Source: a virus. Taken from it: 36,358 nt of DNA. This document shows, one piece after another, positions 17,666 through 35,924 of this stretch (positions are counted from its first letter, which is position 1; every line of letters starts with the position of its first letter). The stretch covers positions 1 to 36,358 of IMG/VR virus record IMGVR_UViG_3300044996_000206, one strand, 5' to 3'. Position numbers and translations under genes: made by a program. The notes under the pieces are model-generated. The model ran no database searches and was not told the DNA's origin. It saw only the letters and a list, made by a program, of their open reading frames with translations.

Positions 17666-19503
17666 GCCGGGAACTCCATATTGGCTACAATTCTGCTCCA
17701 CATTTCCTCATCCAGGACGTCGCCCATTTCCAGCATCACATGGGTCTTCGTGGATGGTTCTGCGTTCCAGCGCACAAAGGGCCAGCCCGCCTTTATGCGT
17801 GGGGTGGGTGTCCCGCTGATGCAGACTTCCCACCCGGTCGCCTTCAAGCCCTCGATGCTGTCCATTGTGCGGATGAACTCCCATTCATGATTGATACGAT
17901 ATTCCCCGATAAAACTGACCTTCGGGGCCGTGTAGATTTGAACGGGCCTGCCAAGTCCAGCATTGCGGTTCTTCCATTCCCTGCCGCCGAACCAATCGGG
18001 AAACTTGTGTCCAGATGAAAGCGAGCCGGGGTGCATCCGGTAGAACATCGTCACCTTATTGTCTGTAAGAAATTCCACCTTCCAGCCCTGTGATGCAATC
18101 CGCATCCACAGGCCAGCATCCTCGGCGGGGCTTTCGTACTTCCTAAACCCGCCAGCCCGTTCCCACGCAGACTTGCGGAAGATGCAGTTCGTAGGCACTC
18201 GGTTCCGGCCCAACGCCTGCTCCTTGAAATTGAAGCTGTCATTGAACCAGCGTTTCCCAATCGGGTTGAGATTTTCGTCGCACAACCCAAGCGGGCCGAA
18301 GACGATGCCAACCAGCGGGTCAGCGAATTTGGGCAACCCCCGCTGAACGTAATCCTTTGCCAGCACATCGTCGGCGTCCACGCACAGGATGATGTCGCCA
18401 GTGGCAGTTTCAATCCCGATGTTCCTTGCCCGGGCCACGCCCTGATTTACGTCAAGCCGGATGTACCTCACTCCATCGGGGATGCTCGGATTGTCCGTGC
18501 TTGCATCATCCACCACGATGATTTCATCAACGGGAACGGTCTGCTTGAAGATGGATTTCAACGTCTCCCCGATGTACCGGGCGTAGTTGTGCAGGGGGAC
18601 GACCACGCTGATTTTCGAGCGTGGGGCCGGGTTCTTCATCAGCCCCGCATAAAGGTCATAGGTCTGCTGGATGGGGGTGTCCCATGAGAACATCGTCCGG
18701 GCATAGTCCCTTGCCCAACTGCTGTACGCCCAATGGTGGAGCAGGACGTTTGTAATCGCCCGAGACAGGCCATCCATGTCACCCGGTTCCACCAGAACGC
18801 AACCCGTGCCATTCTGCAACCATTCCCGGTTGAAGCCCCAATCGAAGCCCACGACCGGGACACCCAAGGCCATCGCCTCCATCGTCGCCATGCTGTTGTT
18901 CTCGAGCGTGGTCGCCAGATAGATGCTGGTCTTTGCGAGAAATTTATAAAATTCTTTTCGGGGAAGTTTCCCGTAATTGTGGATGTTCTCCCCAATCGGT
19001 ATCAGGCTTGCGAGTTTCAGGTCGGTCCTGTTCCGGGCCAGCCAGAGAAGCGGGCGGGGGTCGCATACGGGATTTGCGGTCATCTTGGGCCAGAGTATCG
19101 GGCCGTGAACGTCGCCCCCGCTGGCGGGTAGTTGGTCGAAGTCCACGCCGTTGCGGATGACGGTAGGGCTGATGTGGAAGTCCCGGCGGTAGAAGTCGGC
19201 GGCAAGGTCGCTGACCGCAACCACCCTGCGGGCCGTCATTGCCAGTTTGAACAGTTCGGCGTTCACCTGTGCGGCTTGGGGGAACCAGCCTTTCAGGGAA
19301 GTGGGGTACACGCCATGAGAGTGGTAGACATCGAGCCTGCGCTCTGTCTGCCCGATGGCATGAACGATGACCAAATCGGCGGCGTCCTCGTTCTTCGTAA
19401 AGGTCACGCCCATCTTCTTCAAGTGCCTGTGATGGGCCTCGAGAACGGATGCCACCCCGCCGGACGGCATTTGCTTGTAGTTGGGGGAGATGTGGAGTTT
19501 CAA
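17662..19503 (-). CDS. Bifunctional glycosyltransferase (GT4 plus GT2)
   Basis: The 613-residue protein joins two glycosyltransferases. The first half is GT-B type GT4: an N-terminal PSGGVASVLEAHHRHL, the VYHSHGVYP region and the ENNSMATMEAMALGVPVVG EX7E motif. The second half (from about 300) is GT-A type GT2: ISVVVPLHNYARYI, EIIVVDDASTDN, CVDADD and ESPAEDAGLWMRI. It probably builds a sugar chain on a virion protein or on a lipid or protein of the host. The TTG at 19503 overlaps the preceding stop (TTGA); AGGTAGAG precedes it. The longer frame to 19536 is rejected. Confidence 0.88.
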   Translation of the reverse strand: MKLHISPNYKQMPSGGVASVLEAHHRHLKKMGVTFTKNEDAADLVIVHAIGQTERRLDVYHSHGVYPTSLKGWFPQAAQVNAELFKLAMTARRVVAVSDLAADFYRRDFHISPTVIRNGVDFDQLPASGGDVHGPILWPKMTANPVCDPRPLLWLARNRTDLKLASLIPIGENIHNYGKLPRKEFYKFLAKTSIYLATTLENNSMATMEAMALGVPVVGFDWGFNREWLQNGTGCVLVEPGDMDGLSRAITNVLLHHWAYSSWARDYARTMFSWDTPIQQTYDLYAGLMKNPAPRSKISVVVPLHNYARYIGETLKSIFKQTVPVDEIIVVDDASTDNPSIPDGVRYIRLDVNQGVARARNIGIETATGDIILCVDADDVLAKDYVQRGLPKFADPLVGIVFGPLGLCDENLNPIGKRWFNDSFNFKEQALGRNRVPTNCIFRKSAWERAGGFRKYESPAEDAGLWMRIASQGWKVEFLTDNKVTMFYRMHPGSLSSGHKFPDWFGGREWKNRNAGLGRPVQIYTAPKVSFIGEYRINHEWEFIRTMDSIEGLKATGWEVCISGTPTPRIKAGWPFVRWNAEPSTKTHVMLEMGDVLDEEMWSRIVANMEFPA

Positions 19504-20123
19504 CGCTCTACCTGCAGAACGGCTATGCCATTCCACCAGAGGGGATGATTGAGGCTGGCAGGTTCGATGTAAAGGCGCAGTTTCAATTCGGGGTACATGC
19601 CCATCAGTTCGAACAGGGCGTATCTGACGGTTTCAAATAGCATGTCGTCCAGAACAATGAAGCCGCCGTCCACGACAAACTGCATCCCCAACGTCACGCC
19701 CAAAACGGTCTGCTCGGTGGAGTGCTCGGCATCGTAATAGTACACGCCGACTTGGGTGTTGATGGGAAGCCCGGTCAGTAAAAAAGAGGCCATGTTCTCA
19801 TTGTGGAAGGTCACCCTGTCCTGCATCCCAAATGCAAGCAGGTTCTCTTGCAGGCGGCTTTCATCAGCCGCTTCCTGAAACTGCGAAAAGTCATCCACAC
19901 TGATTGCCTTGGCCTCATTCCCGGTAAGGGCGGCAATCAACGAACCGCCCTGATGCGTCCCTACTTCCAGATAGACCTCGCCCGGTTCCATGCACCCAAC
20001 CAGATGATTGAGCACATGCAAAAAGCGGGGGCGGGACATCGTATTGATTTTCGTGCAAATCAGTTGTAAAGGTTCAAGGTCTGCGACGGTAGCTATTGCG
20101 TTGGCAATATCGGGCTGTTTCAT
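19500..20123 (-). CDS. Class I SAM-dependent methyltransferase-like protein
   Basis: The 207-residue protein has the SAM-binding strand-loop VYLEVGTHQGGSLIAAL (51-67), then ISVDDF, and YYYDAEHSTEQT, close to the Methyltransf_24 / CmcI-like group that often modifies sugars or small molecules. It heads a glycosyltransferase pair with overlapping genes, so methylation of a virion glycan is the simple reading. AGAGG lies 4 bases before the ATG. It follows the hairpin after the capsid gene. Confidence 0.8.
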   Translation of the reverse strand: MKQPDIANAIATVADLEPLQLICTKINTMSRPRFLHVLNHLVGCMEPGEVYLEVGTHQGGSLIAALTGNEAKAISVDDFSQFQEAADESRLQENLLAFGMQDRVTFHNENMASFLLTGLPINTQVGVYYYDAEHSTEQTVLGVTLGMQFVVDGGFIVLDDMLFETVRYALFELMGMYPELKLRLYIEPASLNHPLWWNGIAVLQVER

Positions 20124-23775: not shown

Positions 23776-25490
23776 TATGACCGCCTGCGCATCCACCAAC
23801 GCTTGGGCTTGATTGCCTGCTCCTCTTCATCGGGGACAGGTTCAGCATCCAGCAGGTCGCCCATGCCGGGGGTTCGGCGGCGGGCAGAGTCGATGGCGGC
23901 GTCCACATCAGCCCCGGTTATCACCACCTCATCATCCCCATAAAGCACATCGTCCGATGCACGCATAATAAAATATTTGCGGGTTTTGCGGGAAAGTTCA
24001 CGGATTTTACCTGACGGGAAATCATACTTGACAATCGGTTCGTTGGGGAACGCCTGCATGGCACGCTGGACGGAGACCATTTCGAAAGCCCGCTCCGCTT
24101 CATCGGGAGCTTCTTCGGTATCGTCCGTTTCTTCCTCCGGCGCATCCTCTTCATCGGTGGGCGTTTCTTCAACGGCGGTCGCTTCGATTTCGGGGTTCTC
24201 GGCCCACTCCCTCGGAATGACACCGTTCTCTGCGAGCAGTTGCAATCCCTGCTCGAGCGTAACCATCGCCCCGCCGCCGGTCAGGGCCTGCACGACCTCG
24301 ACCTGCTTCAAGCGCAGTTCTGCGTCGAGCATTTCCCCTTCTGCGTCCCGTTCGTCAAATTCGAAGTGCAGGGTCTCTGGCAGGTTGCCTTGCAATTCTT
24401 CCTGAAATGCCAGCATGAATTCATGCCCGCCCTTGCCGGTGGCCTTACGATGTTGGGTTTCTGTCTCGGTGGACGTTCCGAAATTTCCGGATGAAACGGG
24501 CCAAAACTCCCTCGGGTCGAAGCCGAAGCACAGAGCGTAGCCGTACATGATAAGGTCGGTGTACGTCTGCTGGTCAAACCCTTCGGGGAGTTGCGACAGG
24601 CCGATGAGCTTCGCATCGATGTCATCAACGCCAAGGGACGCCAGCACAGAGACGGAACCGAACCACTCCTGCTCTTTACCATCAAGGGCCGCATCCCTGA
24701 CGGTCATTGCATCATTCCACTGTTTTTGGGTGATGCCCTTGAGCAGAAGCAAGCCCTTCGCCGCTCGAGCGAAAAGCAGTTCCTGTTCGTGACGCATGAT
24801 TGCCGTCAGGATGATGCCCAACTCCATTGCCCGGGACAGAGCGCAGTAGCCGAGCGAGTTGTAGCCTTCGTCCACATTGATTTGCGAGACGGCCCGCATG
24901 AAATCATACGGCCCAAATTCCACCATGCGCCGCCCATCCTTCAACGCCTTGGACGGGTAGTACTTCATCGGGTAGTCAATGTTCGGGGTCATCACGCAAC
25001 GGGTCGGGTCGATGTGGAATAGCCCCGCCAACGGGCCGTCCTTGAATTGCCGTCCCACCTCAACCATGCCGCCAATGTCCATCGTGTAGAAGCCCTGCGC
25101 CATCGCCCCCACGCCATCACGCCATGAGGCCCGTCCAGGTTGCACCTGCCAGTTGTGCAGGACGCTCGAAAAGCGCAGAACCTGATTGCGACCGCCGATG
25201 AGTGACCATCCCCGGTTCCTGTCAATCTGGACGGCAGAGTTGATGACACCGGCAAGGTACGGCTCATTATGCCAGAATGAGTTCATCCACTTGGAGCGTG
25301 TTCGACTGTCGGACTGATATTCGGGGATTTGCTGGAACGCTTCCTTGTGCCAGCGCAGGAAACTGTAAAACATCTCATCTTTGCTGGCATTGCTGAAACG
25401 GGGTTGCTTGGATTTCGCTGTCTTCTCCGCAACCGCTTGCTCGGCTCTTTCCAACCCGGCCTTTATTTCAGGGGTAAGTTTCTTTGCCAT
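23775..25490 (-). CDS. Portal protein
   Basis: This 571-residue protein forms the dodecameric ring through which DNA enters the head. It fits the portal families: an N-terminal WHNEPYLAGVINSAVQIDRNRGWSLI, the MRHEQELLFARAAKGLLLL helix region, LGVDDIDAKLIGLSQLPEGFDQQTYTDLIMYGYALCFGFDPREFWPVSSG, then a TETETQHRKATGKG stem-like helix. After about residue 455 there is an acidic Glu/Asp/Thr-rich linker and a basic end (WWMRRRS). ATG 25490 follows GGAG by 6 bases. It follows a strong terminator and an extended -10 promoter, so it starts a new transcript. Confidence 0.88.
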   Translation of the reverse strand: MAKKLTPEIKAGLERAEQAVAEKTAKSKQPRFSNASKDEMFYSFLRWHKEAFQQIPEYQSDSRTRSKWMNSFWHNEPYLAGVINSAVQIDRNRGWSLIGGRNQVLRFSSVLHNWQVQPGRASWRDGVGAMAQGFYTMDIGGMVEVGRQFKDGPLAGLFHIDPTRCVMTPNIDYPMKYYPSKALKDGRRMVEFGPYDFMRAVSQINVDEGYNSLGYCALSRAMELGIILTAIMRHEQELLFARAAKGLLLLKGITQKQWNDAMTVRDAALDGKEQEWFGSVSVLASLGVDDIDAKLIGLSQLPEGFDQQTYTDLIMYGYALCFGFDPREFWPVSSGNFGTSTETETQHRKATGKGGHEFMLAFQEELQGNLPETLHFEFDERDAEGEMLDAELRLKQVEVVQALTGGGAMVTLEQGLQLLAENGVIPREWAENPEIEATAVEETPTDEEDAPEEETDDTEEAPDEAERAFEMVSVQRAMQAFPNEPIVKYDFPSGKIRELSRKTRKYFIMRASDDVLYGDDEVVITGADVDAAIDSARRRTPGMGDLLDAEPVPDEEEQAIKPKRWWMRRRS

Positions 25491-25527
25491 GTGCCACTCC
25501 ATTCGAAAACCGGGAAACTTCTCTGGT

Positions 25528-25536
25528 ATTGTAACA
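25528..25536 (-). promoter_or_regulatory. Extended -10 promoter for the portal operon
   Basis: TGT-TACAAT (TACAAT 25533-25528) is a good extended -10 element; the -35 region (TTTTTA) is poor. It lies between the terminator at 25549-25577 and the portal RBS, where a promoter is needed. Confidence 0.5.
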
Positions 25537-25548
25537 CGGCTTTGCGAC

Positions 25549-25577
25549 AATAAAAAGCCCCCCAAACTTGGGGGGCT
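25549..25577 (-). terminator. Rho-independent terminator before the portal gene
   Basis: Stem AGCCCCCCA / TGGGGGGCT, 4-base loop, then TTTTATTG on the minus strand. It follows the stop of the gene at 25604 by about 27 bases and closes the small-gene unit. Confidence 0.92.
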
Positions 25578-25603
25578 ATATGGGGCAACTTGTTCAGTAC
25601 TTG

Positions 25604-25891
25604 TCAGCCACTTACAGGCGGGTCGTGTTTTTGGGTCAGTTTCATCAACTTCATGCCGGTTTCAAACAGGGCATCCTTGACGGCCAGCGTGAAAGCCATA
25701 AAGTAGCCGCCCTCACCTACGTTCTTATTGAGCACCTTCTGGTAGAACGCCCGCAGAATTTCCAGTTCTTCCCGCAACCGTTCCACTTCAAGGGCGGCGT
25801 CCCTGCATCCACAGATGCACGGCTTCCCATCGAGCAGGGCCTTGTTGCACTTGTGGGAATGGGTGATGAGCAACAGGTCAAGTGCGCTCAT
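25604..25891 (-). CDS. Small Cys-rich protein (95 aa)
   Basis: The N-terminal third has a possible metal site (H11, H13, C15, C25, C27, C29) and then a coiled-coil helix (33-55). No family is recognised. The ATG overlaps the preceding stop (ATGA). It is the last gene before the strong terminator. Confidence 0.72.
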   Translation of the reverse strand: MSALDLLLITHSHKCNKALLDGKPCICGCRDAALEVERLREELEILRAFYQKVLNKNVGEGGYFMAFTLAVKDALFETGMKLMKLTQKHDPPVSG

Positions 25892-26247
25892 TGCAGACCC
25901 CCGCTTTCGTTCACCGAGACATCCCGCCCGAACGTGGCGATGTTCTTGGCGGTGGCCTCATCCTCTGCATCCTGCAGAGCGCATTCGTCGCTCACCTTGG
26001 TGTGGGCCTTGAGTATCGCCCCCCACACCAGCAGGCCACCGATAGAGACGACCAGCGCACCCAACGCCCACAACCAGCCCTGTGCGCCATGACTTTCGAC
26101 TTCCTCGAACAACACCCCGGTCATGGAGCGATGCGAGTTCTCCTTGATGTAGTCCTGCTCGCCATTGATGCTCGGCAGGCTGAACACCAGTAGAACGGCG
26201 GCGAACACCAGCAGAAGCATTCCAGCGGCTTTCAGCATTTCCTTCAT
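25888..26247 (-). CDS. Two-TM membrane protein (119 aa)
   Basis: Hydrophobic segments at about 7-24 and 59-79 enclose a charged loop (NGEQDYIKENSHR) and are followed by an acidic C-terminal tail. AAGGAGA lies 7 bases upstream. Part of a run of very small envelope-type and zinc-finger proteins; function unknown. Confidence 0.75.
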   Translation of the reverse strand: MKEMLKAAGMLLLVFAAVLLVFSLPSINGEQDYIKENSHRSMTGVLFEEVESHGAQGWLWALGALVVSIGGLLVWGAILKAHTKVSDECALQDAEDEATAKNIATFGRDVSVNESGGLQ

Positions 26248-26471
26248 TCGGGTTTCTCCTTGAGCAGATAGCGGTAGGGTAGGGTTCCAACAATGCCTTG
26301 CAGTTCTTTCGTCGCATGTTGGATGATGAGGGCCAGTTTCCGGGCCTGCGCATATTCGTCCGGGTGCGACATTTCAAAGTGCAGGGCAAGGACAGCGTCC
26401 TTGTCCACGATGGACAACAGCGCAACTTTCGCCTTGCAGAGGGGGCAACGTGCAATCTTTGAATTTGACAC
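26244..26471 (-). CDS. Small C2H2 zinc-finger-like protein (75 aa)
   Basis: C9-x2-C12 and H31-x4-H36 (CPLC ... HFEMSH) make a classic C2H2-like finger, then a helix. Such small phage proteins often bind nucleic acid or host proteins. The start is GTG 26471 with GGAG 6 bases upstream. It overlaps the next gene as ATGA. Confidence 0.75.
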   Translation of the reverse strand: MSNSKIARCPLCKAKVALLSIVDKDAVLALHFEMSHPDEYAQARKLALIIQHATKELQGIVGTLPYRYLLKEKPE

Positions 26472-26486
26472 TCGGTTCTCCTTGTA

Positions 26487-26681
26487 TCAGAATTTCTTCC
26501 ACAGCTTCAACCACAGGTAGGTAGCGGCAACGCCGATTGCCAGCACCCACCACTCCACCTTGGTTCCATACCGCATCCAGTTCGTTAGGTCCTTGGCGAA
26601 GCTGGAAACCACCAAATACATGGCAACTCCCCAAATGAACGTCCAGTAGGCTTTTTCAACCTTGGTCAATCGACGGCGCAT
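26487..26681 (-). CDS. Small two-TM membrane protein (64 aa)
   Basis: The protein begins MRRRLTKVEK and has two hydrophobic helices (about 11-30 and 42-60) with many Trp residues. GAGGAGG lies 3-5 bases before ATG 26681; the longer frame to 26744 overlaps another small gene. Unknown function. Confidence 0.72.
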   Translation of the reverse strand: MRRRLTKVEKAYWTFIWGVAMYLVVSSFAKDLTNWMRYGTKVEWWVLAIGVAATYLWLKLWKKF

Positions 26682-26689
26682 GTTCCTCC

Positions 26690-26812
26690 TCACTTCGACA
26701 GCAATGCCAGTATCGGCTCGATGGGGCGAAAGACAACCACCCAAATGGTCCAGAGCGCAAACAGGACGATGGCGGTTCCTATCCTTCGAGAATTCTCGGG
26801 GCGAGGGTACAT
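26690..26812 (-). CDS. 40-residue single-TM micropeptide
   Basis: A short frame starts at ATG 26812 (AGGA with a 7-base spacer) and ends at 26690, eight bases before the next gene and within its SD region. The product MYPRPENSRR... has a basic start and one TM helix (11-28, IGTAIVLFALWTIWVVVF). The tight fit between neighbours and the RBS support it as real. Function unknown. Confidence 0.68.
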   Translation of the reverse strand: MYPRPENSRRIGTAIVLFALWTIWVVVFRPIEPILALLSK

Positions 26813-26876
26813 CTTCTTATCCTAGTCAATAGGTAGAGCCATCACCACCTAACGGCGAGTATGAGCAGCGCGTTAT

Positions 26877-27449
26877 TCAGCGTCCACTCCATGCAGTGTT
26901 AGAGCGCACTTTGCCGAGGAAGTACGCCCACAATGCCCCACCCGCAACTTTAGCGGCAAATTGTCCCAAAGTGACAAGCGGGAGAAAACCACCAAAAGCG
27001 ATGGCTGGAAAAACAAGGCTATCAACCAACGCACTAAAAACATTCGAGCCATTGACTTTGACCATATAACTGCGCTCATGCAAAAACCGGTAAACGATAG
27101 TGTCAACGATGGAGGAACACGCAAAGGCGGCAAAAGAAGCAATCGCAATTCCTCCCGCGCTTTGATTGAGAGCATAAGAAATCAGGCTACCCGCCACAAT
27201 TAGTAAGCCCATTTTCCAGACAATCCCGTTTCTATGCCATGCCTCATGCAATTTATCTCGGCTGGTCAAATCTAAACCGATGAATAAAAAGGCGTTGACG
27301 ATGCTGGCAGATGGGCCAAATTTAGCCGTTACCAGATTGGCCGCCACTATCGCGGCGAGATACAAACAAACCATACTGCTTTGGACGAGCCATGTACTTG
27401 CGCCATTCGCTGATTGCTTTGGTTCTCTCAAATCGCGTTCTTGTCCCAT
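26877..27449 (-). CDS. VUT/YhhQ-type transporter, probable 7-deazaguanine precursor importer
   Basis: This membrane protein (190 aa from ATG 27449) resembles the VUT (YhhQ) family of queuosine-precursor transporters: LAAIVAANLVTAKFGPSASIVNAFLFIGLDLTSRDKLHEAW is the typical first helix and loop, followed by ACSSIVDTIVYRFLHER and SALVDSLVFPAIAFGG. E. coli YhhQ imports preQ0 and preQ1. It probably feeds the transglycosylases of this phage. AAAGG lies 11 bases before the ATG; the gene overlaps the TGT-like gene by 128 bases, so a shorter start at Met 27374 (MVCLYLAAIVAANL) is possible. The stretch is AT-richer than its neighbours. Confidence 0.82.
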   Translation of the reverse strand: MGQERDLREPKQSANGASTWLVQSSMVCLYLAAIVAANLVTAKFGPSASIVNAFLFIGLDLTSRDKLHEAWHRNGIVWKMGLLIVAGSLISYALNQSAGGIAIASFAAFACSSIVDTIVYRFLHERSYMVKVNGSNVFSALVDSLVFPAIAFGGFLPLVTLGQFAAKVAGGALWAYFLGKVRSNTAWSGR

Positions 27450-27966
27450 CGCATGTAAACCTTTCTGAATTTTCTAAACTTGCAAAATGTTCATATCGGC
27501 GAAGCCAATTCACCCGCCCGATGTGGATATGCTTACCAATCGATTGGGCCCGATGAATACAATCAATCGCCGCCGCACTCATTTTCCAGACCGTAGAACC
27601 GCCAATAAACAAACATTGCCAAAGTTGGGATGCTGGAAATTCTAGGTTTTCCATTCCATCCTGAGCAACAAAAGCCACCGGCCACCCACCGAAACTAGAT
27701 TGATATTGTTGGAATAGCGATAACGTTTCAACGGCATTACCCACAACATCTGGGCAAACGACGAAAAGACAGGTCGATTTATATTCGCTCATCTTTTCAA
27801 GCCAAGGGAAAAACTTGTCTGGATTGAAACCCTTTGTAAAAGCTTGATTGTCCGCCGCCCATTTCATGCCGTCTTTGATACCAGACGGAATACCATACAT
27901 CCCCGGAGTAGCCAAAATTCCGAAGTCTTTATCAAAAAAACCGCCAATGGGTGCAAGATAAATCAT
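27322..27966 (-). CDS. Second TGT/DpdA-like transglycosylase
   Basis: The 214-residue protein looks like a short member of the tRNA-guanine transglycosylase fold: FVVCPDVVG (69-76), VAQDG (100-104), IGGSTVWK (121-128, compare the GGLAVGE loop of TGT), HIHIGRVN (147-153) and RFTCDGTRTRFE (169-180), whose Asp could be the nucleophile. DpdA proteins of phages exchange guanine in DNA for a 7-deazaguanine. It is distinct from the protein at 33600-34457 and stands beside a precursor transporter. ATG 27966 has GGGG and AGGAG before it. Base composition is AT-richer than the rest, suggesting later acquisition. It could instead act on tRNA. Confidence 0.68.
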   Translation of the reverse strand: MIYLAPIGGFFDKDFGILATPGMYGIPSGIKDGMKWAADNQAFTKGFNPDKFFPWLEKMSEYKSTCLFVVCPDVVGNAVETLSLFQQYQSSFGGWPVAFVAQDGMENLEFPASQLWQCLFIGGSTVWKMSAAAIDCIHRAQSIGKHIHIGRVNWLRRYEHFASLENSERFTCDGTRTRFERTKAISEWRKYMARPKQYGLFVSRRDSGGQSGNG

Positions 27967-27976
27967 ACTCCTACCC

Positions 27977-28060
27977 CTACCAGACAGGCCAGTCAACGGG
28001 GCCAACCAGAACCAAAACGATAAAGCCAATTACGATTGCGACCAAGATGCCAGTGACCAT
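27977..28060 (-). CDS. 27-residue single-TM micropeptide
   Basis: ATG 28060 follows AAGGAG with an 8-base spacer and the frame ends at 27977 just before the SD of the TGT-like gene. The product MVTGILVAIVIGFIVLVLVG... is nearly all one TM helix. It is the first gene after the promoter at 28099-28127, so it should be well expressed; it may also serve as a leader peptide for the next gene. Confidence 0.7.
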   Translation of the reverse strand: MVTGILVAIVIGFIVLVLVGPVDWPVW

Positions 28061-28098
28061 GTGAGTTCTCCTTGTTTTGGTAATATGCCCTATGTCTT

Positions 28099-28127
28099 AT
28101 TATAAGGTTTCCGGGGTGGATTTGCAA
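28099..28127 (-). promoter_or_regulatory. Sigma70-type promoter for the transglycosylase-transporter unit
   Basis: TTGCAA (28127-28122), 17 bases, TATAAT (28104-28099). The flanks lack the CCCTAT-A-ATAGGG dyad of the early promoter family (TTATAATAAG instead), so this unit may be under different control. Confidence 0.82.
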
Positions 28128-28131
28128 GTAG

Positions 28132-28154
28132 AGGGCCGGGGGTCACCCGGCCCT
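28132..28154 (-). terminator. GC hairpin after the small early gene
   Basis: 9-bp stem AGGGCCGGG / CCCGGCCCT with a 5-base loop, 7 bases after the stop of the gene at 28162. The following CTACTTG is a poor U-tract. It overlaps the upstream side of the next promoter. Confidence 0.6.
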
Positions 28155-28161
28155 GCTGTTC

Positions 28162-28479
28162 CTACCGCCACCCGATTTCGGATGCGGCGCATCCGGGCAG
28201 GTAGCCAATCTGCTGGCCCTCGACCAGATAGACCACCCATTCCGGCTCACGCCCGTTCATGATGTTCGCCTCGACATCGAAGCGGTTTGCCCCGGTTTCC
28301 TCGCAGATGTTCTCCACTTCCAGTTCCTCGTCCTCGGTCATGCCGTTGACGTCCACCTGCACCACGTCCCGGACGGTGTATTCGAGCGGGTACGACGGTT
28401 GCTGTGCGAAGCGGACTTCGGCATCATCGGGCATTTCCTCGAGCATGTCACGCAGTTCCTTTACGGTCAGTGAATTCAT
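28162..28479 (-). CDS. Small acidic hypothetical protein (105 aa)
   Basis: It starts MNSLTVKELRDMLEEMPDDAEVRF, a helix-strand pattern frequent in small phage proteins of unknown function, and contains strongly acidic stretches (TEDEELEVENICEE). AAGGAGA lies 6 bases before ATG 28479. The longer frame to 28545 would start inside the promoter and is rejected. Single gene behind promoter P2. Confidence 0.78.
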   Translation of the reverse strand: MNSLTVKELRDMLEEMPDDAEVRFAQQPSYPLEYTVRDVVQVDVNGMTEDEELEVENICEETGANRFDVEANIMNGREPEWVVYLVEGQQIGYLPGCAASEIGWR

Positions 28480-28510
28480 TTCGGGTCTCCTTTTTTGAAT
28501 GTTCCAGACT

Positions 28511-28556
28511 GTGATACTTATGACCCTATTATAGGGAAGTATCACAGGATTGTCAA
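28511..28556 (-). promoter_or_regulatory. Strong early promoter with nested operator-like repeats (P2)
   Basis: TTGACA (28556-28551), 17 bases, TATAAT (28533-28528). The -10 box is centred in CCCTAT-A-ATAGGG, and this is flanked by a perfect 9-bp inverted repeat GTGATACTT (28511-28519) / AAGTATCAC (28537-28545). A repressor bound here would cover both spacer and start site. Confidence 0.9.
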
Positions 28557-28596
28557 GGGGTCAGTTTTATCAGTTTTATAGGGGAATATCGTATCA
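28528..28596 (-). repeat. Early promoter module, copy A
   Basis: From the TerL stop codon to the -10 box, the minus strand reads TGATACGATATT, then CCC.ATAAAACTG, CCCYTTGACAATCCTGTGAT and TTCCCTATAATAGGG. The same order and nearly the same bases occur at 35819-35877. Copy A carries an extra 10-bp unit (ATAAAACTGA) in tandem. Confidence 0.8.
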
Positions 28597-29910
28597 CTTA
28601 CCCGGACCGCGTGACCAATGCCCGCCGCTCGAAACCGTGACGGCGAAGTAGCGCAGAGCATCGAGCCGGTGGTATGAGGACTTATTGGCGATTGCGTTGG
28701 TCATCCGGTTTTCGCTGTCTGCCACCCGGGAGTAGGTTACCAGTTCGGACAGAAGCCCCCGCAGGTCTTTGCTGATTTTCAGCCGCCCGGACCTGAACAT
28801 TTCAATCACGCAGGAAATTCCGATTTCAACATCATCGGTGTAGGGCCTCATGACCGGTATCCCCTCCCTGTTCCAGTCGGCCCGGAATTGCGTTTCCCCA
28901 AATGACCCGCCATAGTATTCGACCAAGCGGTGACCCTTCCCCTTGAGCGCAGTTTCAAAGGCGTGTTCATGGGTGGATTTGCCCCCGGATAGGCTTTCGT
29001 AATAAACGTGCCAGATGTTTGTTTGCGGGTCAAGCCATGCCCACAGTTGAGCCGTGTTCGCCCCGCCGAAGTCCAGCCCGACCACTACTCGGCCCTCATC
29101 CAGTGGTATTTCAAACGGCTGGTCCGTCATGGTATCTTCATCGAAGCAATCGTATATCAGACCAGCAGGGCGTGCGAACACTCCCTGATAGAACATCTTG
29201 AACCGCCAATCCGGTAGCGAGCGTTTCGCCCTGCGATATTCGTCCAATGGGAAGGCCGGGTTCGCAATGCTTGGAAACTGAATGACCCTGTAGTCGGCGT
29301 CCCCAGCGTCCCATCGGTCATAGACTTCCCGCTTCAACCATCCGAGATTGTACGGGGTCGTTGTGCCAAGCACAAGCCCCTGATGCAGGGCAAGGCGGCG
29401 TAGCACCGCCTCCCACGCATCGTAGCCGAAGCTGTCCTGCCCGCACTCATCCAGCCATGCCGCCTTCGCCGTCATCGACTCGAGCGCACCCGGGCTTGCC
29501 GCCGAGCGCAGGATAATTCTTCCCCACATCTTGTCTCCCGGCTTTTTGGCCCAAAACCTGCCAGTGTCAGGGTCACGCAATTCGATGACCTTATCACCCG
29601 GCCACCACTTGCCTACCCTTTGCACGCCCTCGAATACTGTTCGGACCTCTGGTAGCATCTTCAACTTGAACATATCGAATGTGGATGTTGCGCAGATATA
29701 ATCCCCCGAACCAAGCCCCGGCTTGACACCATCCCCGTATATTCTCGAGTACAACCACCAAGGGCCAAACGATGTTTTTCCTGACTGGCTTCCCGCAATG
29801 ATGAAAGTAAAACGGGCCTGGCTTGTATAGGCGAGACCCTGATAGTAGTGCATCTTGAGCCTGATTACACCACCAGGCTCAACTTGATATATTTCCTTCT
29901 GGCTGGTCAT
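28594..29910 (-). CDS. terL: Terminase large subunit
   Basis: The packaging motor protein (438 aa) has an ATPase with Walker A AGSQSGKT (39-46), Walker B AWLDE (151-155), coupling motif GTTTP (182-186), and an RNase H-like nuclease with VVVGLDFGG (D280) and YHRLDALRY (D417). It cuts concatemers and drives DNA into the head. It overlaps the small subunit gene by 32 bases and has no clear SD at ATG 29910; Met20 at 29853, with CAGG 6 bases before it, is an alternative start. It is the last gene of the modification-packaging operon. Confidence 0.95.
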   Translation of the reverse strand: MTSQKEIYQVEPGGVIRLKMHYYQGLAYTSQARFTFIIAGSQSGKTSFGPWWLYSRIYGDGVKPGLGSGDYICATSTFDMFKLKMLPEVRTVFEGVQRVGKWWPGDKVIELRDPDTGRFWAKKPGDKMWGRIILRSAASPGALESMTAKAAWLDECGQDSFGYDAWEAVLRRLALHQGLVLGTTTPYNLGWLKREVYDRWDAGDADYRVIQFPSIANPAFPLDEYRRAKRSLPDWRFKMFYQGVFARPAGLIYDCFDEDTMTDQPFEIPLDEGRVVVGLDFGGANTAQLWAWLDPQTNIWHVYYESLSGGKSTHEHAFETALKGKGHRLVEYYGGSFGETQFRADWNREGIPVMRPYTDDVEIGISCVIEMFRSGRLKISKDLRGLLSELVTYSRVADSENRMTNAIANKSSYHRLDALRYFAVTVSSGGHWSRGPGK

Positions 29911-30523
29911 CTTTTTGGCTCAGTAGGCTCTCGATGTCGGGTGGCTGTTGTGGGATTTCCACAACCGTATTAATAACCATCTTGCCATCCGGGGTGTTTT
30001 CCACTTCGAGGCCGGGTGTATCGTTGTACTCAATGCGGGATTGCTCCATCAGCCGCTCGAGTGCGTTCACCAACTCCGGCAACTTGACCCCTTCGGTCTT
30101 GACCACGTTCAGGCTCGCCGCTATCTTTGAGTTCGCTACCCGAAGCAGAGCACGCCTGCGACGACGCCACTCCTCCTGTTCCTTGGAGAACGCAATTTCA
30201 TCCTCCCTTTGCATAATGGCATCAAAAGCCCCAACCCGTTCCTTCCAAGCAAACCCGCTGGACCACTCGATGAGCGTCTGCCATGATGTCGTTGGCGGGA
30301 CGGGCTGGCCCACCTTCCAATCCTTCTTCATGTCCTGATAGCGTGCCAGCAGGATGCGAAGCGAACGACCCGACCGCATGTAGGCGTAATCTCTTATCGC
30401 CTGATTTGCCCGGGTGCTTTCCCTGTAAATCCGCTCAAGCGGGGCATCCAGGTTGAACTGCGGGTCCTTGGGTGGATACTCCTGTGCCTTCAACGCAGGT
30501 AGTCGTGACTTTCCAGCGGTCAT
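29879..30523 (-). CDS. terS: Terminase small subunit-like protein
   Basis: This 214-residue protein directly precedes TerL. Residues about 55-110 look like a small DNA-binding region ending in WSSGFAWKERVGAFDAIMQRE, a pattern seen in several small terminases, then a long basic helix (EEWRRRRRALLRVANSKIAASL) and a C-terminal tail. Small terminases recognise the packaging site. The ATG overlaps the FolE stop (ATGA) with AGGA before it. Confidence 0.8.
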   Translation of the reverse strand: MTAGKSRLPALKAQEYPPKDPQFNLDAPLERIYRESTRANQAIRDYAYMRSGRSLRILLARYQDMKKDWKVGQPVPPTTSWQTLIEWSSGFAWKERVGAFDAIMQREDEIAFSKEQEEWRRRRRALLRVANSKIAASLNVVKTEGVKLPELVNALERLMEQSRIEYNDTPGLEVENTPDGKMVINTVVEIPQQPPDIESLLSQKDDQPEGNISS

Positions 30524-31074
30524 TTTCCTGCTCCGGACAAAGACAAGAACTCGGCCCGCAACGTAGCCAATTCAAGGAACTTTCCCGACATTGCGCTTGA
30601 CGTGAACACACAGGGCATCTTGATGCCACGCATCGTCATGCACAGGTGCTCACCACTTGCCACCACCGCCACACTGGTAGTCTTGGCAACCTGCCCGATT
30701 TCATCCGCAATTTCCTGAACGAGCCTTTCCTGTAACTGCAACTTGTGGGCGTGCTTTTGGGCTATCCTGCCGAACTTGGACAGCCCGATGATTTTATTCT
30801 CGGACAGGTAGCCTATCGTGACATCAGCAAAAAAGGGTAACAGATGATGCTCACACAATGACCACACTCGCAAGCCCCTGACCAACACCAGCTGGTCAGT
30901 GTTATAGGCCTCGAAGGTAGTGTCGTAGTTTCCGGGGGAGTAGTCAATAAACTCTTTCCAGAACCCGGCAAACCGGCGTGGCGTTTCCCGAAGCCCCTCC
31001 CTTGCCGGGTCCTCCCCGATTGCCTCAAGGATGAGTTTGCAAGCTTCTTTGAGTTTTCCTTCATCGACATTCAT
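30520..31074 (-). CDS. folE: GTP cyclohydrolase I
   Basis: This 184-residue enzyme turns GTP into dihydroneopterin triphosphate, the first step to preQ0. Visible zinc site: SLCEHHLLPF (C74, H76, H77) and GEHLCMTMRGI (H143, C145). The length is typical. In phage 7-deazaguanine clusters FolE raises precursor supply. GAGGT lies 3 bases before the ATG, which overlaps the QueE stop (ATGA). Confidence 0.96.
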   Translation of the reverse strand: MNVDEGKLKEACKLILEAIGEDPAREGLRETPRRFAGFWKEFIDYSPGNYDTTFEAYNTDQLVLVRGLRVWSLCEHHLLPFFADVTIGYLSENKIIGLSKFGRIAQKHAHKLQLQERLVQEIADEIGQVAKTTSVAVVASGEHLCMTMRGIKMPCVFTSSAMSGKFLELATLRAEFLSLSGAGK

Positions 31075-31724
31075 GCGACCTCTATATACTTGTGAACCTG
31101 TATTGAAATATTCCAGCCACGTTTCATTGCGTAATCAAGGCAGAGGCGAGTGGCATTCTTGCTGATGCTCACTGGCTGTAAACTAATTATACAGTCTTCT
31201 CTCACGGGCCAACCTACCAATAACTTTTCCAGCAAGGCCAAGTCAGACTCTTTTCCAATGACGGTCTTTATTTCATCTGCTGTTCCGATGACATCCAAAT
31301 CGATAGGCTTGGCGGCCCTGATTTTAGGCGACACGCACACCCAATCGAAGGCGGCCCGGAGCGAGCCTCGGGCTGTTCCGGATGTTTCTAGGGCAACGCT
31401 CAGACCATCACGATGCAAGACCTGTACGAGCTTTTCTAGGTCTTGCAGGGCTGGTTCTCCCCCCGTAACCATGACCCATCTGTATTGTGGATGATAGATG
31501 CGAATATGCTCGGCAATTTCTCGCTCATCCACCAGAGCGGCATTCCCGTTCTTCCCAAGGACATCCTCGAGATAGGGCTTGTTGGCTTCGGAAGGCCAAG
31601 TTTCCTTCGTGTCGCACCAGACGCACCCGACATCACACCCCTGCAGGCGCAGTATGACCATGGGAGTGCCAACCTTCGCACCCTCGCCCTGCACGCTTGG
31701 ATAGATGTCATTTACCATTATCAT
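31071..31724 (-). CDS. queE: 7-carboxy-7-deazaguanine synthase
   Basis: Radical SAM enzyme of 217 residues that contracts the pterin ring of 6-carboxytetrahydropterin to 7-carboxy-7-deazaguanine. The CxxxCxxC cluster motif is C30, C34, C37 in RLQGCDVGCVWCD, the SAM-binding GGEP motif is at about 88-91, and the N-terminus YPSVQGEGAKVGTP is typical. It overlaps the QueD gene by 17 bases; GAGGT lies 9 bases before ATG 31724, and the second ATG at 31718 is possible. Confidence 0.96.
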   Translation of the reverse strand: MIMVNDIYPSVQGEGAKVGTPMVILRLQGCDVGCVWCDTKETWPSEANKPYLEDVLGKNGNAALVDEREIAEHIRIYHPQYRWVMVTGGEPALQDLEKLVQVLHRDGLSVALETSGTARGSLRAAFDWVCVSPKIRAAKPIDLDVIGTADEIKTVIGKESDLALLEKLLVGWPVREDCIISLQPVSISKNATRLCLDYAMKRGWNISIQVHKYIEVA

Positions 31725-32082
31725 ATGGAGTGTACCTCGCAGAAGTTTCCGGGCTTTCCTTTACGGTAACGGCGGTGAGCAGGGGATACTCTGCCGAAAA
31801 CGCCTCAAACAGATGCCGAGCGATATTCTCGGCGGTGGGTGGCACACCTGCGGGCATCTTGTCGTTCAGGTGATAATGGTCAAGGTTCTGGTCTATCCAC
31901 GCCTTTATTTGTGAAAGTTCCCCGTAATCCTGAACGAACCCGGTGGCATCCAGCTCGGTCGAGGACAACTCGAACACGACCTCGTAGGTGTGACCGTGCA
32001 AACGGGCGCACTTATGCCCCGGCGGTAAATGGTCGAGCCGATGACTGGCCGAGAACTTGAAGCTCTTGCAAATCGTGTACAT
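31708..32082 (-). CDS. queD: 6-carboxytetrahydropterin synthase
   Basis: This 124-residue enzyme converts dihydroneopterin triphosphate to 6-carboxytetrahydropterin. Zinc ligands H14 (SASHRL), H29 and H31 (LHGHTY), catalytic C25 and the LDH (H69) and PTAENIAR motifs are all present, so it should be active. The ATG overlaps the upstream stop (TAATG) with AAAGGG 8 bases before. Confidence 0.96.
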   Translation of the reverse strand: MYTICKSFKFSASHRLDHLPPGHKCARLHGHTYEVVFELSSTELDATGFVQDYGELSQIKAWIDQNLDHYHLNDKMPAGVPPTAENIARHLFEAFSAEYPLLTAVTVKESPETSARYTPYDNGK

Positions 32083-32681
32083 TATCGTTTCCCTTTCCAG
32101 TATTCGAGAACGACATCTGTGGATGTTTTCTCGGCAACCTGCGCCAGACGAAAACCGCTCTTGAGTAGATGAGTACGCATTTCGTCGGCCCTGCTTCCAA
32201 GGTGTCTAAGATGGACCTCCATCAATAAAGCCCGCAAATCCGTTCCTACGAGTTTCTGCGATATAAAGAACTCATCCCCTTCCACATCCATCACGATGAC
32301 CGTTGGCCTGTGATGCGTCATGAGCTTGCCTATCGCATCGAAGCAGGCAAAACGCAGATTGCCCATGTCCCCATAAACCGGACCAACGACCCGGGATGTA
32401 TTCCACCATTCCGAGCGAACCCAATAGGGTCGTATCCCCCCTCGGGCCAGAACCCCTCGCCTTACCATCTGGACGTTTTTTGCCCCGCTTTGGCGCACGT
32501 TCTCCTTGAGCAGGACGAAGTTTCGGGCATCCATTTCGTAGGCCACGACCTTCTTTGCCTTTTTGGATAATGGGACCGTGACCGTGCCATGCCCTGCCCC
32601 GATTTCCAGCACAACATCATCCGGCTCAATATGCGGGATGATGAAATCGACCTCGGCCTGTTCCATTTCGTTAGTTTCCAT
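32082..32681 (-). CDS. FkbM-like SAM-dependent methyltransferase
   Basis: The 199-residue protein has motif I VVLEIGAGHGTVTVPL (23-38), an acidic residue after strand 2 (VAYEMDARN) and VIVMDVEGDEF, the FkbM-type VDVEG signature. It is placed between QueD and QueC in one overlapping operon, so it may methylate the 7-deazaguanine or its nucleotide; direct evidence is lacking and an O-methyltransferase for sugars is the family norm. CGGAG lies 5 bases before ATG 32681; the frame to 32732 would overlap QueC more. Confidence 0.82.
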   Translation of the reverse strand: METNEMEQAEVDFIIPHIEPDDVVLEIGAGHGTVTVPLSKKAKKVVAYEMDARNFVLLKENVRQSGAKNVQMVRRGVLARGGIRPYWVRSEWWNTSRVVGPVYGDMGNLRFACFDAIGKLMTHHRPTVIVMDVEGDEFFISQKLVGTDLRALLMEVHLRHLGSRADEMRTHLLKSGFRLAQVAEKTSTDVVLEYWKGKR

Positions 32682-33603
32682 ATTTCTCCGTCCACGAACC
32701 ATAGCCGTTTGCCGCAAGCCATTCCGCATCAATCACGGAAAGCGTTTCTATCGAACGCTCCTCCCCGTAAGTGGTGGAACCCGGCTTCAGCAACTCAAGC
32801 CTCATGGCATTCCTGTACTTCTCGATATAAGGGCCTGCTCTTTCCAGTGGATTGCGGTCATACACTTTCATGATTTCACTGTGCGGGAAGCCGTTATTTG
32901 CAAAGGCGATATAATGCCGCAAGCACGCCTGACACTGACCGCAATGCCCGGATGTTGGGTCGAAGCACGAAACGGTCTTCAGTAAATAGTCGGGAACATT
33001 CCCCGCATTTATCCACCATCTCATCCAGCCGCTCTTGGTTCTTTCGGCAAGCGTGACAATGTCCTTTACGCCATAGGACTCGGATAGATATGCTTTGGCC
33101 CGGTCGATGAAATGCTCGCTCTTATCGCCGCCAGTGGGTGGGATTTCTCCCTTCGTTGCACCGAAATAAATCACCCCGCCGTTGCCTGCTTCCACGGCAC
33201 ACCGCAACAGTATAAGCAGGTTTCTGCCCGGGATGATGTGCTTCCAATTGGAACCAAGGTCGCCTCGGTATCCGATGTCACATCGCTCCACGATGAACGG
33301 GATTTCCAAGCCCCTCAGTGTGTGGATTTCCTTGCTTGCGTAAGCCTGTCCGAAGTCCATGTATATCGTCTGCAACGGGAGCGATGGGCTGGTCGCCATC
33401 GCCAGATAATAGGCGATTGTGCTGTCCAACCCCCCTGACACTGGAACCACCGTCATGCCCCGGCCTAGTGCGTTCCTTTTGGCGGTGGGGTATTCCGGCT
33501 CATCAATCGCCTCGACGAACAATTTCCACAACTCCATCGGGGCATCGCCAGTATGCGAAATGCTGATTTTCGATAACGCTTGCGCCAGTTCGTAATCGCT
33601 CAT
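32671..33603 (-). CDS. queC: 7-cyano-7-deazaguanine (preQ0) synthase
   Basis: QueC turns 7-carboxy-7-deazaguanine into preQ0 using ATP and ammonia. The PP-loop VSGGLDS (55-61), the IPGRNLLIL motif (125-132) and four zinc cysteines C213, C221, C224, C227 (SGHCGQCQAC) are intact. At 310 residues it is longer than usual QueC (about 220-240), with an N-terminal helix of about 45 residues and a C-terminal tail of about 50. No glutamine amidotransferase domain is fused. ATG 33603 overlaps the previous stop (ATGA) with GAGG 8 bases before it. Confidence 0.95.
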   Translation of the reverse strand: MSDYELAQALSKISISHTGDAPMELWKLFVEAIDEPEYPTAKRNALGRGMTVVPVSGGLDSTIAYYLAMATSPSLPLQTIYMDFGQAYASKEIHTLRGLEIPFIVERCDIGYRGDLGSNWKHIIPGRNLLILLRCAVEAGNGGVIYFGATKGEIPPTGGDKSEHFIDRAKAYLSESYGVKDIVTLAERTKSGWMRWWINAGNVPDYLLKTVSCFDPTSGHCGQCQACLRHYIAFANNGFPHSEIMKVYDRNPLERAGPYIEKYRNAMRLELLKPGSTTYGEERSIETLSVIDAEWLAANGYGSWTEKYGN

Positions 33604-34457
33604 GGCTTTTTCCTCATCCGAACTCCCCAAATGGCGGTCAGGTATTCCTCGGCCCGCTTCATGTTCAGGTACTCGAAGGCCCGCAGGTAGGTTGTGGCAT
33701 GTGTCTTTGCCCGCTTCATAACGGCAGGGAAACTCGGTAAACCGAAGCGGGTAAAATAATGCTCATAACTGATTATCCTCGGGTCACCGACCTGAAAACG
33801 AACATACTGCAATTTCGTTTCATCGAAGATATTTACCTTTCCCCATCGGTAGCCGATGTACGTGGAACTATCCGCTGAAAAGGCAGGGGCCTCCATCAGG
33901 ATGGGGTACGAACCAATCCCGAACAGATGCAATCTTTTCTTGGCCTTGATGGCTTCATAGGCGTGCCACCGGATGCTTTGCTTTATGGCATCAATGCTTT
34001 TCGTTGCCCCGACCATCCCCCCAAGCGCAACGTCCGGGTACTGCGCCAGCATGTCCTGATAAATCGTCAGCGGCTCTCCCATGTGGTAAACGGGCATCGG
34101 GGACAATCCCATTCCCTGTAACACGGACAGGTTCGCCGCACTTTTCTGCCAAGACTCTTTCACATCAAGATTTGCATAACAGTCAATCCAGCTAAGATTT
34201 TTCGTCAGCCAGTTGCCGTAGGCGTTCACGTCGATTGTCTGGTACTGTGTGAACGCAGAATAAGCCCCACTGTCCACGAACAGGATGATTTCGTCCCGCT
34301 GAACCCATCTTCCAAGGTAGTCAGCGAGGTTCTTGTTTTTCAAGGTCCAATAGGACATGAGTACCGTTATCGGGAAATACTTGCGACCGGACGCCTGCTC
34401 TGCCTCCCGCAGGGCATCCACAAATCGCAAAGCCTGCTCAACGAAATAGAGGCGCAT
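33600..34457 (-). CDS. dpdA: DpdA-like DNA guanine transglycosylase (TGT fold)
   Basis: This 285-residue protein keeps the landmarks of the TGT TIM barrel: FVDSGAYSAF (60-69, compare the DSGGFQ of TGT), PVYHMGE (122-128), ALGGMVGATK (144-153, substrate loop), LHLFGIGS (176-183) and SADSSTYIGYRWG (194-206), whose Asp is a likely nucleophile. DpdA replaces guanine in DNA by preQ0 or a relative. The lack of the TGT zinc site and the QueC/D/E/FolE neighbours favour DNA over tRNA as substrate. AGGAG lies 9 bases before the ATG, which overlaps the ParB-like stop (TAATG). Confidence 0.82.
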   Translation of the reverse strand: MRLYFVEQALRFVDALREAEQASGRKYFPITVLMSYWTLKNKNLADYLGRWVQRDEIILFVDSGAYSAFTQYQTIDVNAYGNWLTKNLSWIDCYANLDVKESWQKSAANLSVLQGMGLSPMPVYHMGEPLTIYQDMLAQYPDVALGGMVGATKSIDAIKQSIRWHAYEAIKAKKRLHLFGIGSYPILMEAPAFSADSSTYIGYRWGKVNIFDETKLQYVRFQVGDPRIISYEHYFTRFGLPSFPAVMKRAKTHATTYLRAFEYLNMKRAEEYLTAIWGVRMRKKP

Positions 34458-35038
34458 TACAGCTTGCTCCTGTCCACAGCCCGAAGGATTTTCCCAACTG
34501 CCTTCGCCTCATCGCTCATGTGCAGTTGCGTCATCATTTCGGTGAACAGGCCGAAGTCCTGCCTGCTCACTCTGACCGTAATTATTGCCCAATTTTCTTC
34601 GTCGGCCCTCTCGCTCTCCTCCTCGATATACTCGGGTTCGTCCGCGGCCATGCGTAACGCCTCTTCGATGTTCTCAAAACCAGGCAAGCCCGGATGCTCC
34701 GCAATGAATTCAATCGTTTTCAGCGGGTTGAACATGCTCATGTCTGCGGTTCGATTATCGACCATCAAATAGGCATCAGCCTGTTCCTGTGTGCCTTCAA
34801 ATTCCCCCGCCGCTATCTTCGTCCACCCCTCCCGCTTTGCCGCCTCCCACGTTCCGTTTCCCGCAATGATGTACCTAGTTCCACGCTGGATGAGTACGGG
34901 TCTTGTCTGTCCATATTCCCGCAAGGATGCCTGTATCGCAGATAGGTTTTCTTCAGGGTGGTCACGCTTATTTTCGGGATGGGGAACGATGCTGTCCAGC
35001 GGCACAAGCAAGGGCGTTAGATAGGGAGCGAATTTCAT
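34457..35038 (-). CDS. ParB-like domain protein heading the modification operon
   Basis: The 193-residue protein has a ParB/Srx-type N-terminal domain: PLDSIVPHPENKRDHPEENLSAIQASLREYGQTRPVLI and IIAGNGTWEAAKREGW (57-72). These domains bind nucleotide and can cleave DNA or hydrolyse ATP; in bacterial DNA-modification clusters ParB/DndB-type proteins accompany DpdA. After residue 100 it is acidic and may bind partners. ATG 35038 has no SD but lies 6 bases after a perfect TATAAT, so the mRNA may be leaderless. An in-frame ATG at 35062 is upstream of the -10 box. Confidence 0.82.
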   Translation of the reverse strand: MKFAPYLTPLLVPLDSIVPHPENKRDHPEENLSAIQASLREYGQTRPVLIQRGTRYIIAGNGTWEAAKREGWTKIAAGEFEGTQEQADAYLMVDNRTADMSMFNPLKTIEFIAEHPGLPGFENIEEALRMAADEPEYIEEESERADEENWAIITVRVSRQDFGLFTEMMTQLHMSDEAKAVGKILRAVDRSKL

Positions 35039-35044
35039 GGCCGA

Positions 35045-35050
35045 ATTATA
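35045..35050 (-). promoter_or_regulatory. -10 box of a leaderless promoter
   Basis: TATAAT (35050-35045) is followed by TCGGCC and then the ATG at 35038. RNA would begin on the A of the start codon. The -35 region (TTTCGT) is poor. The upstream terminator at 35062-35091 means this operon needs its own promoter. Confidence 0.62.
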
Positions 35051-35061
35051 GCGTATTAGCA

Positions 35062-35091
35062 TACAAAACGAAAGCCCCCTCCCGGGGGCTT
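35062..35091 (-). terminator. Rho-independent terminator
   Basis: 8-bp stem AAGCCCCC / GGGGGCTT with loop GGGA on the minus strand, then TTCGTTTTG. It follows the stop of the gene at 35121 and separates the early unit from the modification operon. Confidence 0.85.
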
Positions 35092-35120
35092 GGTTTCTCC
35101 TTCTCCTCCAGCCTACTGTT

Positions 35121-35468
35121 TCAGGCGACTGCCATGTCGGGTGTGGTGGTCGTCGCAGGTAGACCGGCCTTCATCGCCGCCTTTTCGTTGGCAATGCGGG
35201 CCAACTGCCCTACGTACTTCATCATGCGCCTGCGGGCCACCGCCAACTGCTTGATGGACAGGGAGCGTCCCCGCCCGATTTGCTCGGCAAAGGACGACAG
35301 GATATTTGCATCGAAGGCAGAGAAGCCGACCAGGTTGTGCTCATTCGTGTGCATGTGGAGCTTTTCGTGGCTGGTCTGGTACTGCCAGATGGCGACGACG
35401 GCCCGCATGACCGCATGGTCATTCTCGCTGAGCAGTTGCTTGATGTCTTCCTTGGTGTATGTTTTCAT
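35121..35468 (-). CDS. Conserved phage hypothetical protein (115 aa)
   Basis: The protein MKTYTKEDIKQLLSENDHAV... with GFSAFDANILSSFAEQI and RSLSIKQLAVARRRMMKYVGQLARIA resembles a family common in phages and mobile elements, whose function I do not know. AAATGGAG lies 6 bases before ATG 35468. It is the second gene after promoter P3. Confidence 0.8.
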   Translation of the reverse strand: MKTYTKEDIKQLLSENDHAVMRAVVAIWQYQTSHEKLHMHTNEHNLVGFSAFDANILSSFAEQIGRGRSLSIKQLAVARRRMMKYVGQLARIANEKAAMKAGLPATTTTPDMAVA

Positions 35469-35481
35469 CCGGTTCTCCATT

Positions 35482-35796
35482 TCAGGCGGTGAACGTGCGA
35501 TAGTTGCTGGACTTGGACCAACTCTTGCGGAGCATTACCGTCGTCACCCGGGCCTGCCGACCATCCGTCCGCACTACCGCCACAACGCTGTCGCCCCGGG
35601 CGATGCCATCGGGCTTCACATCGGGGTCGGCGATTTCGGTGTACGGGACGCTCTTGACGATGATGTAGGTCGGCTCATCAACGGAGGGCTTGACGTTTAC
35701 CTGCCACAGTTTGCGAACCACCTCTTCCTTGGTGACCAAGGTGTTCAATCGGTGGGTGATGCGTTCTTCTGCGTGGCGGGTAAGAGTTGCGTTCAT
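35482..35796 (-). CDS. Small hypothetical protein behind promoter P3 (104 aa)
   Basis: It begins MNATLTRHAEERITHRLNTLVTKEEV and continues with beta strands (YIIVKSVPYTEI, VVAVVRTDGRQARVTTVML), a layout like RelE/BrnT-type small folds (RHAEERI is typical), but no toxin activity can be claimed and no antitoxin partner is evident. AGGAG lies 7 bases before the ATG. Confidence 0.78.
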   Translation of the reverse strand: MNATLTRHAEERITHRLNTLVTKEEVVRKLWQVNVKPSVDEPTYIIVKSVPYTEIADPDVKPDGIARGDSVVAVVRTDGRQARVTTVMLRKSWSKSSNYRTFTA

Positions 35797-35818
35797 GTTC
35801 AGTCTCCTGTATAACCCT

Positions 35819-35847
35819 ATTATAGGGAATAATCACAGGATTGTCAA
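35819..35847 (-). promoter_or_regulatory. Strong early promoter with dyad at -10 (P3)
   Basis: TTGACA (35847-35842), 17 bases, TATAAT (35824-35819), again within CCCTAT-A-ATAGGG. Drives the two small genes down to 35121. Confidence 0.9.
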
Positions 35848-35877
35848 GAGGGCAGTTTTATCGGGAAATATCGTATC
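35819..35877 (-). repeat. Early promoter module, copy B
   Basis: Same ordered blocks as at 28528-28596: TGATACGATATT, CCCGATAAAACTG, CTTGACAATCCTGTGAT, CCCTATAATAGGG, lacking the extra 10-bp unit. The two copies are 7.3 kb apart. Confidence 0.8.
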
Positions 35878-35882
35878 AAATC

Positions 35883-35911: not shown

Positions 35912-35924
35912 CTCTCGCCAGCCA

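Follow-up and report, generated by a model that had tools for sequence, protein, structure and literature searches.

A VUT/YhhQ-family gene adjoining a short DpdA gene in a phage with preQ0 synthesis genes: a probable import-and-insert cassette for 7-deazaguanine

YhhQ, the closest experimentally known family to the membrane protein described here, transports preQ0 and preQ1 (PMC6884629, PMC11130926). YhhQ homologs have been reported in phages before, with no correlation to any phage group (PMC6884629), and many phages carry dpdA with no preQ0 genes; the source of their 7-deazaguanine has been left between host synthesis and uptake (PMC6884629, PMC8306585). That a single phage should combine import with synthesis has precedents. 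In phage EC151, a preQ0 transporter is encoded alongside a complete preQ0 cluster (PMC8310023), and import is joined to synthesis in the haloviruses HCTV-1 and HCTV-16 (PMC8651126). Phage CAjan likewise precedes the present case, as does SHIN8, an Escherichia phage (Seuratvirus) with a full preQ0 cluster, a VUT gene, and DpdA genes of both the DpdA-L and DpdA-S types (see below) in one genome.

The window analyzed here is the whole of IMG/VR record IMGVR_UViG_3300044996_000206, 36,358 bases in length and probably a fragment (Table 1). Like CAjan and EC151, it combines folE, queD, queE, queC, and DpdA with a gene for a putative preQ0 transporter; in CAjan this is gp41, whose match to the VUT profile has a probability of 98.3%. 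In those two phages, however, the transporter lies within the synthesis cluster, whereas the VUT gene of this record lies outside its cluster and is paired with a short DpdA, a type not detected in CAjan. SHIN8 differs in that its DpdA-S lies beside a sliding-clamp gene and away from VUT, which is inside the synthesis cluster. We read the window, with a probability of roughly 0.7, as that of a phage with a self-sufficient, synthesis-fed DpdA-L to which a second unit, an import-and-insert cassette of VUT plus DpdA-S, has been added. VUT would span the inner membrane with six helices and import a 7-deazaguanine base, most likely preQ0 or preQ1, and the overlapping DpdA-S would swap guanine in the phage DNA for the imported base, a replacement that would probably guard against host restriction. 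The cassette would have joined a phage in which FolE, QueD, QueE, and QueC already fed DpdA-L.

Table 1. Features of the VUT/DpdA-S region and of the preQ0 cluster, with positions in the window
Feature	Position	Strand	Evidence
VUT/YhhQ-family membrane protein, putative 7-deazaguanine base importer	26877..27449	-	Pfam, phrog_4899, YhhQ homology, AlphaFold2
DpdA-S, putative DNA-guanine transglycosylase, overlaps VUT gene	27322..27966	-	phrog_15826, model, profile match
Possible 27-aa single-helix membrane peptide ORF, just upstream of DpdA-S	27977..28060	-	hydrophobic helix; aaggag-like (ribosome-binding-like) site before ORF
Terminase large subunit, nearest recognized phage gene to cassette	28594..29910	-	phrog_2 E 4e-24
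FolE (GTP cyclohydrolase I)	30520..31074	-	PF01227 174 bits
QueE (cluster order FolE, QueE, QueD)	31071..31724	-	TIGR04322 186 bits, cut-off 200; phrog_2076
QueD (6-carboxytetrahydropterin synthase)	31708..32082	-	PF01242 108.6 bits
FkbM/RsmA-like methyltransferase within preQ0 cluster	32082..32732	-	PF00398 41.8 bits; TIGR01444 39.4 vs cut-off 37.7
QueC (preQ0 synthase), divergent	32671..33630	-	PF06508 38.8 bits, cut-off 22
DpdA-L (second DpdA, phrog_887 type)	33600..34457	-	phrog_887 E 7e-29
ParB-like protein adjoining DpdA-L	34457..35062	-	phrog_620 E 2e-24

The preliminary description of this locus had proposed a VUT/YhhQ-type protein next to a transglycosylase, and both assignments hold. 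The Pfam model Vut_1 (PF02592) matches the VUT ORF at 47.5 bits (E 3e-12) against a gathering cut-off of 27.2, phrog_4899 matches it with an E-value of 9e-35, and E. coli YhhQ shows 36% identity across 59 residues (E 3e-06); the HMM search yielded no non-VUT membrane family. A relative on phage contig L007 scores 45.5 bits to Vut_1, and comparison of profiles relates VUT to the QPTR/COG1738 YhhQ family at 93%. Scores fall under the equivalog cut-offs for queuosine precursor transporters (TIGR00697, 36.2 vs 50.95; PRK11212, 25.3 vs 252), which marks the protein as a divergent, short member of the superfamily. With E. coli YhhQ it has in common a homologous core that includes the motifs DLT-x-R and D-T/S-L-x-F-x-x-IAF, although YhhQ has 221 residues and the phage VUT only about 165. 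From this homology, the phage protein would be expected to transport preQ0 or preQ1. An AlphaFold2 model (a prediction only) has six helices and a pLDDT of 93; the top solved folds for it are ECF S-components (Z 8.6-10.8 over about 140-154 residues; Foldseek E 0.48), a comparison in which helical proteins score high by chance. A sequence search of the PDB with VUT found no relatives, megablast of positions 25001-36358 against phages gave no match, and PADLOC returned nothing for VUT or for either DpdA.

Translated from its first ATG, the VUT ORF encodes 190 aa and its frame shares 128 bp with the DpdA-S gene. The alternative start at Met26 (ATG 27374-27372) gives 165 aa and an overlap of 53 bp. 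Family members begin near Met26, which makes the start codon uncertain and the Met26 position the probable one. Residues 3-25 had been considered as an N-terminal marker from apparent homology in PEAT2 and Flyfo, and were rejected because in PEAT2 the stretch crosses a stop. Comparison of VUT with its nearest viral relative gives dN 0.156 and dS 1.21 (dN/dS about 0.13), and the protein is therefore under purifying selection.

The putative transglycosylase is the 214-aa product of the gene directly upstream, a TGT-fold relative of DpdA. Its family, phrog_15826, is labelled "unknown function" in PHROGs, while GenBank relatives are annotated as DpdA-like. The family profile of DpdA-S matches that of the phrog_887-type DpdA (DpdA-L) at 97.8%; against the single DpdA-L sequence of the record the figure was 0.3%, the comparison being uninformative until both sides were profiles. 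The curated DpdA models PF23859 and NF041059 gave no Pfam or NCBIfam match for DpdA-S, and a PDB sequence search found no relatives. The AlphaFold2 model has a pLDDT of 91. Plain Foldseek placed assorted barrels rather than TGTs at the top, and TGTs emerged only in structural (VIA) re-ranking, where most of the best-placed chains are TGTs (Z about 13, rmsd about 3.3, aligned over about 190 of the 214 residues); because pyruvate kinase barrels reach equal scores, the TGT-type barrel fold is by itself unspecific for DpdA-S. Residues D39, PD72-73, Q102, GG122-123, H148, and D173 are invariant in the family alignment (D39 and D173 across 40 members), and the placement of conserved Asp residues and the order of motifs agree with those of other DpdA proteins. 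From its kinship with DpdA, DpdA-S would be expected to insert 7-deazaguanine into DNA. The short DpdA of SHIN8 (L282, 8732-9324) reads as a pair of overlapping half-ORFs, through a frameshift or because the gene is naturally split.

Transporter genes had also been called rare in phages. VUT is indeed uncommon among named phages, with 21 of 50,697 records, but in IMG/VR at least 371 stretches encode relatives. A search with VUT fetched 80 distinct IMG/VR contigs; 74 of them have an HMM match to DpdA adjacent on the same strand, and a match to PF23859 (Pfam DpdA) makes L072 the 75th paired contig. Once VUT sequences are clustered at 80% identity, 28 of 30 clusters are paired, with a short DpdA (11), a phrog_887-type DpdA (16), or a PF23859 DpdA (1). 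Pairs occur in both gene orders and with three DpdA subfamilies; VUT is seen with no detected DpdA in 5 of the 80 contigs (two clusters) and in phage mEp021. For example, VUT overlaps or adjoins DpdA in Pectobacterium phage PEAT2, Flyfo siphovirus Tbat1_6, and Acinetobacter phage AB3P2 as it does here, although their DpdA is of the phrog_887 type and QueC and QueD were undetected. Of 34 records, this one alone strongly matches both DpdA types. One 79 kb viral contig (G007, locus L035) has two separate pairs of short DpdA and VUT, at 25997-27099 and 69806-70863.

Of the 78 contigs fetched by short DpdA, 33 have VUT only, 18 have preQ0-synthesis genes only, 27 have neither, and none has both. 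Fisher's test on this split gives p 1.4e-5 across contigs and p 0.012 across 54 clusters. These values are rough, since the contig sets share ancestry and co-occurrence was counted within flanks of 5-10 kb, mostly of fragments, which also makes "never both" partly a limit of view. The record itself has VUT and preQ0-synthesis genes, 3-7 kb apart. Among 31 VUT-bearing records, QueD is found in none and QueC strongly in one. The adjacency of VUT and DpdA, together with the split between VUT and synthesis genes among short-DpdA contigs, indicates that VUT most likely supplies the adjoining DpdA, the two genes forming an import-and-insert cassette. Phage importers themselves were already known; what is new is their near-constant adjacency to DpdA, which we did not find described in the literature searched. 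This linkage suggests that the correlate of phage YhhQ homologs is a neighboring DpdA, and where phages with no detected synthesis genes keep a transporter tied to dpdA, uptake becomes a directly testable answer to the question of their 7-deazaguanine source.

Capacity for preQ0 synthesis, likewise proposed in the preliminary description, is borne out by a complete set of folE, queE, queD, and queC, which together with the second DpdA occupies positions 30520-35062. The QueE, QueD, and QueC proteins of the record score under the NCBIfam equivalog cut-offs. Of the markers for a dG+ or dPreQ1 pathway (QueF, QueF-L, ArcS, or a Gat domain), neither QueF nor an amidotransferase was recognized among the ORFs scanned in this possibly fragmentary record, where a weak QueF score came from FolE alone, and preQ0 is thus the expected product of the cluster. 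DpdA-L keeps the family-invariant residues D62 and D196, and 180 phage records match; a viral scan with the record's own DpdA-L as the query returned no relatives. The methyltransferase within the cluster, for which no relative was found in the fetched loci, might alter the modified base or might be a DNA methyltransferase. A special link between ParB and DpdA was considered and rejected, since ParB also lies beside TerL in relatives that lack DpdA within the fetched stretch. At 16697-19536, the region of structural genes includes two glycosyltransferase-like genes.

The GC content of the cassette is 46-48%, that of the preQ0 cluster 53%, and that of the whole record 56%; the lower GC suggests that the cassette arrived as a unit. 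In a tree of VUT sequences, phage and chromosomal genes interleave, and the protein of this record groups with phage contig L007 and a Methylococcaceae gene, 71% identical, with support of 0.976. One chromosomal relative, in a Chloroflexi genome, is part of a QueF-QueC-VUT run, while the neighborhoods of other chromosomal VUT genes are mostly uninformative. The interleaved tree and the QueF-QueC-VUT run suggest that VUT has been exchanged repeatedly between phages and bacteria. The presence of TGT in genomes with a chromosomal VUT was discarded as evidence, since 14 of 14 control genomes also have TGT. Tentatively, and at somewhat under even odds, dpdA-VUT may be a mobile module that serves as an alternative to preQ0 synthesis and is re-assembled from different DpdA subfamilies and host-derived VUT genes. 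Its occurrence here, alongside a complete synthesis-fed DpdA, would then mean that one genome carries two systems for 7-deazaguanine modification of DNA, independent of each other and differing in base or in motif.

The division of labor between the two DpdA proteins can be drawn in other ways. VUT could top up one shared preQ0 pool for both, with the enzymes differing only in DNA motif and import acting as insurance against poor synthesis. This we consider a real possibility, if one with the odds leaning against it: VUT does lie within the preQ0-synthesis cluster in CAjan and SHIN8, modification of CAjan DNA affects two motifs, GA and GGC (cited in PMC8306585), and in Vibrio phage R29Z both types of DpdA occur beside synthesis genes with VUT undetected. 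Most sampled contigs, however, place VUT beside DpdA and outside synthesis clusters, and the low GC of the cassette suggests its arrival as a unit. The preliminary description had offered two reasons for the presence of both routes: a precursor demand beyond the output of a single route, or transglycosylases with different precursors. The first finds no support, VUT being tied to its adjoining DpdA, mostly in records where preQ0 genes were not found (QueD in 0 of 31). The second is unlikely on present evidence; in this reading preQ1, queuine, or 7-carboxy-7-deazaguanine would be brought in by VUT for DpdA-S, and phage-made preQ0 would be inserted by DpdA-L. Two DpdA subfamilies with separate supply would fit this arrangement, as would the chromosomal QueF-QueC-VUT run, and in locus L037 (2540-4680) QueC, VUT, and DpdA stand directly in a row with QueD and QueE undetected, which may hint that an intermediate preceding preQ0 is imported. 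Yet L037 is a 14.7 kb fragment, and one precursor with two target motifs fits the same gene content and is at least as likely.

A role for VUT apart from base supply, whether in superinfection exclusion, lysis timing, or vitamin uptake, with the gene merely traveling beside dpdA, seems improbable. Vut_1 is named for vitamin uptake, the VUT model resembles vitamin-binding S-components, and some lambdoid phages (mEp021) have a distant VUT with DpdA not found. Simple hitch-hiking, however, would not predict that the pairing arises again and again with DpdA of three subfamilies and in either gene order, and YhhQ, the nearest family known from experiment, transports preQ0 and preQ1 (PMC6884629, PMC11130926).

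A separate observation concerns the C-termini of phage DpdA proteins. A peptide resembling sliding-clamp-binding motifs (Q-x-x-L-F type) occurs in the last 20 residues of 31 of 91 representative phage DpdA sequences, compared with 3.3 expected from shuffles, a count that lacks independence because the sequences are related. The DpdA-S of this record has QYGLF near its C-terminal end. A sliding-clamp gene adjoins the short DpdA in both SHIN8 and R29Z (the R29Z clamp was called by reading the sequence). Clamp-binding-like C-termini of this kind may tie base exchange to replication.
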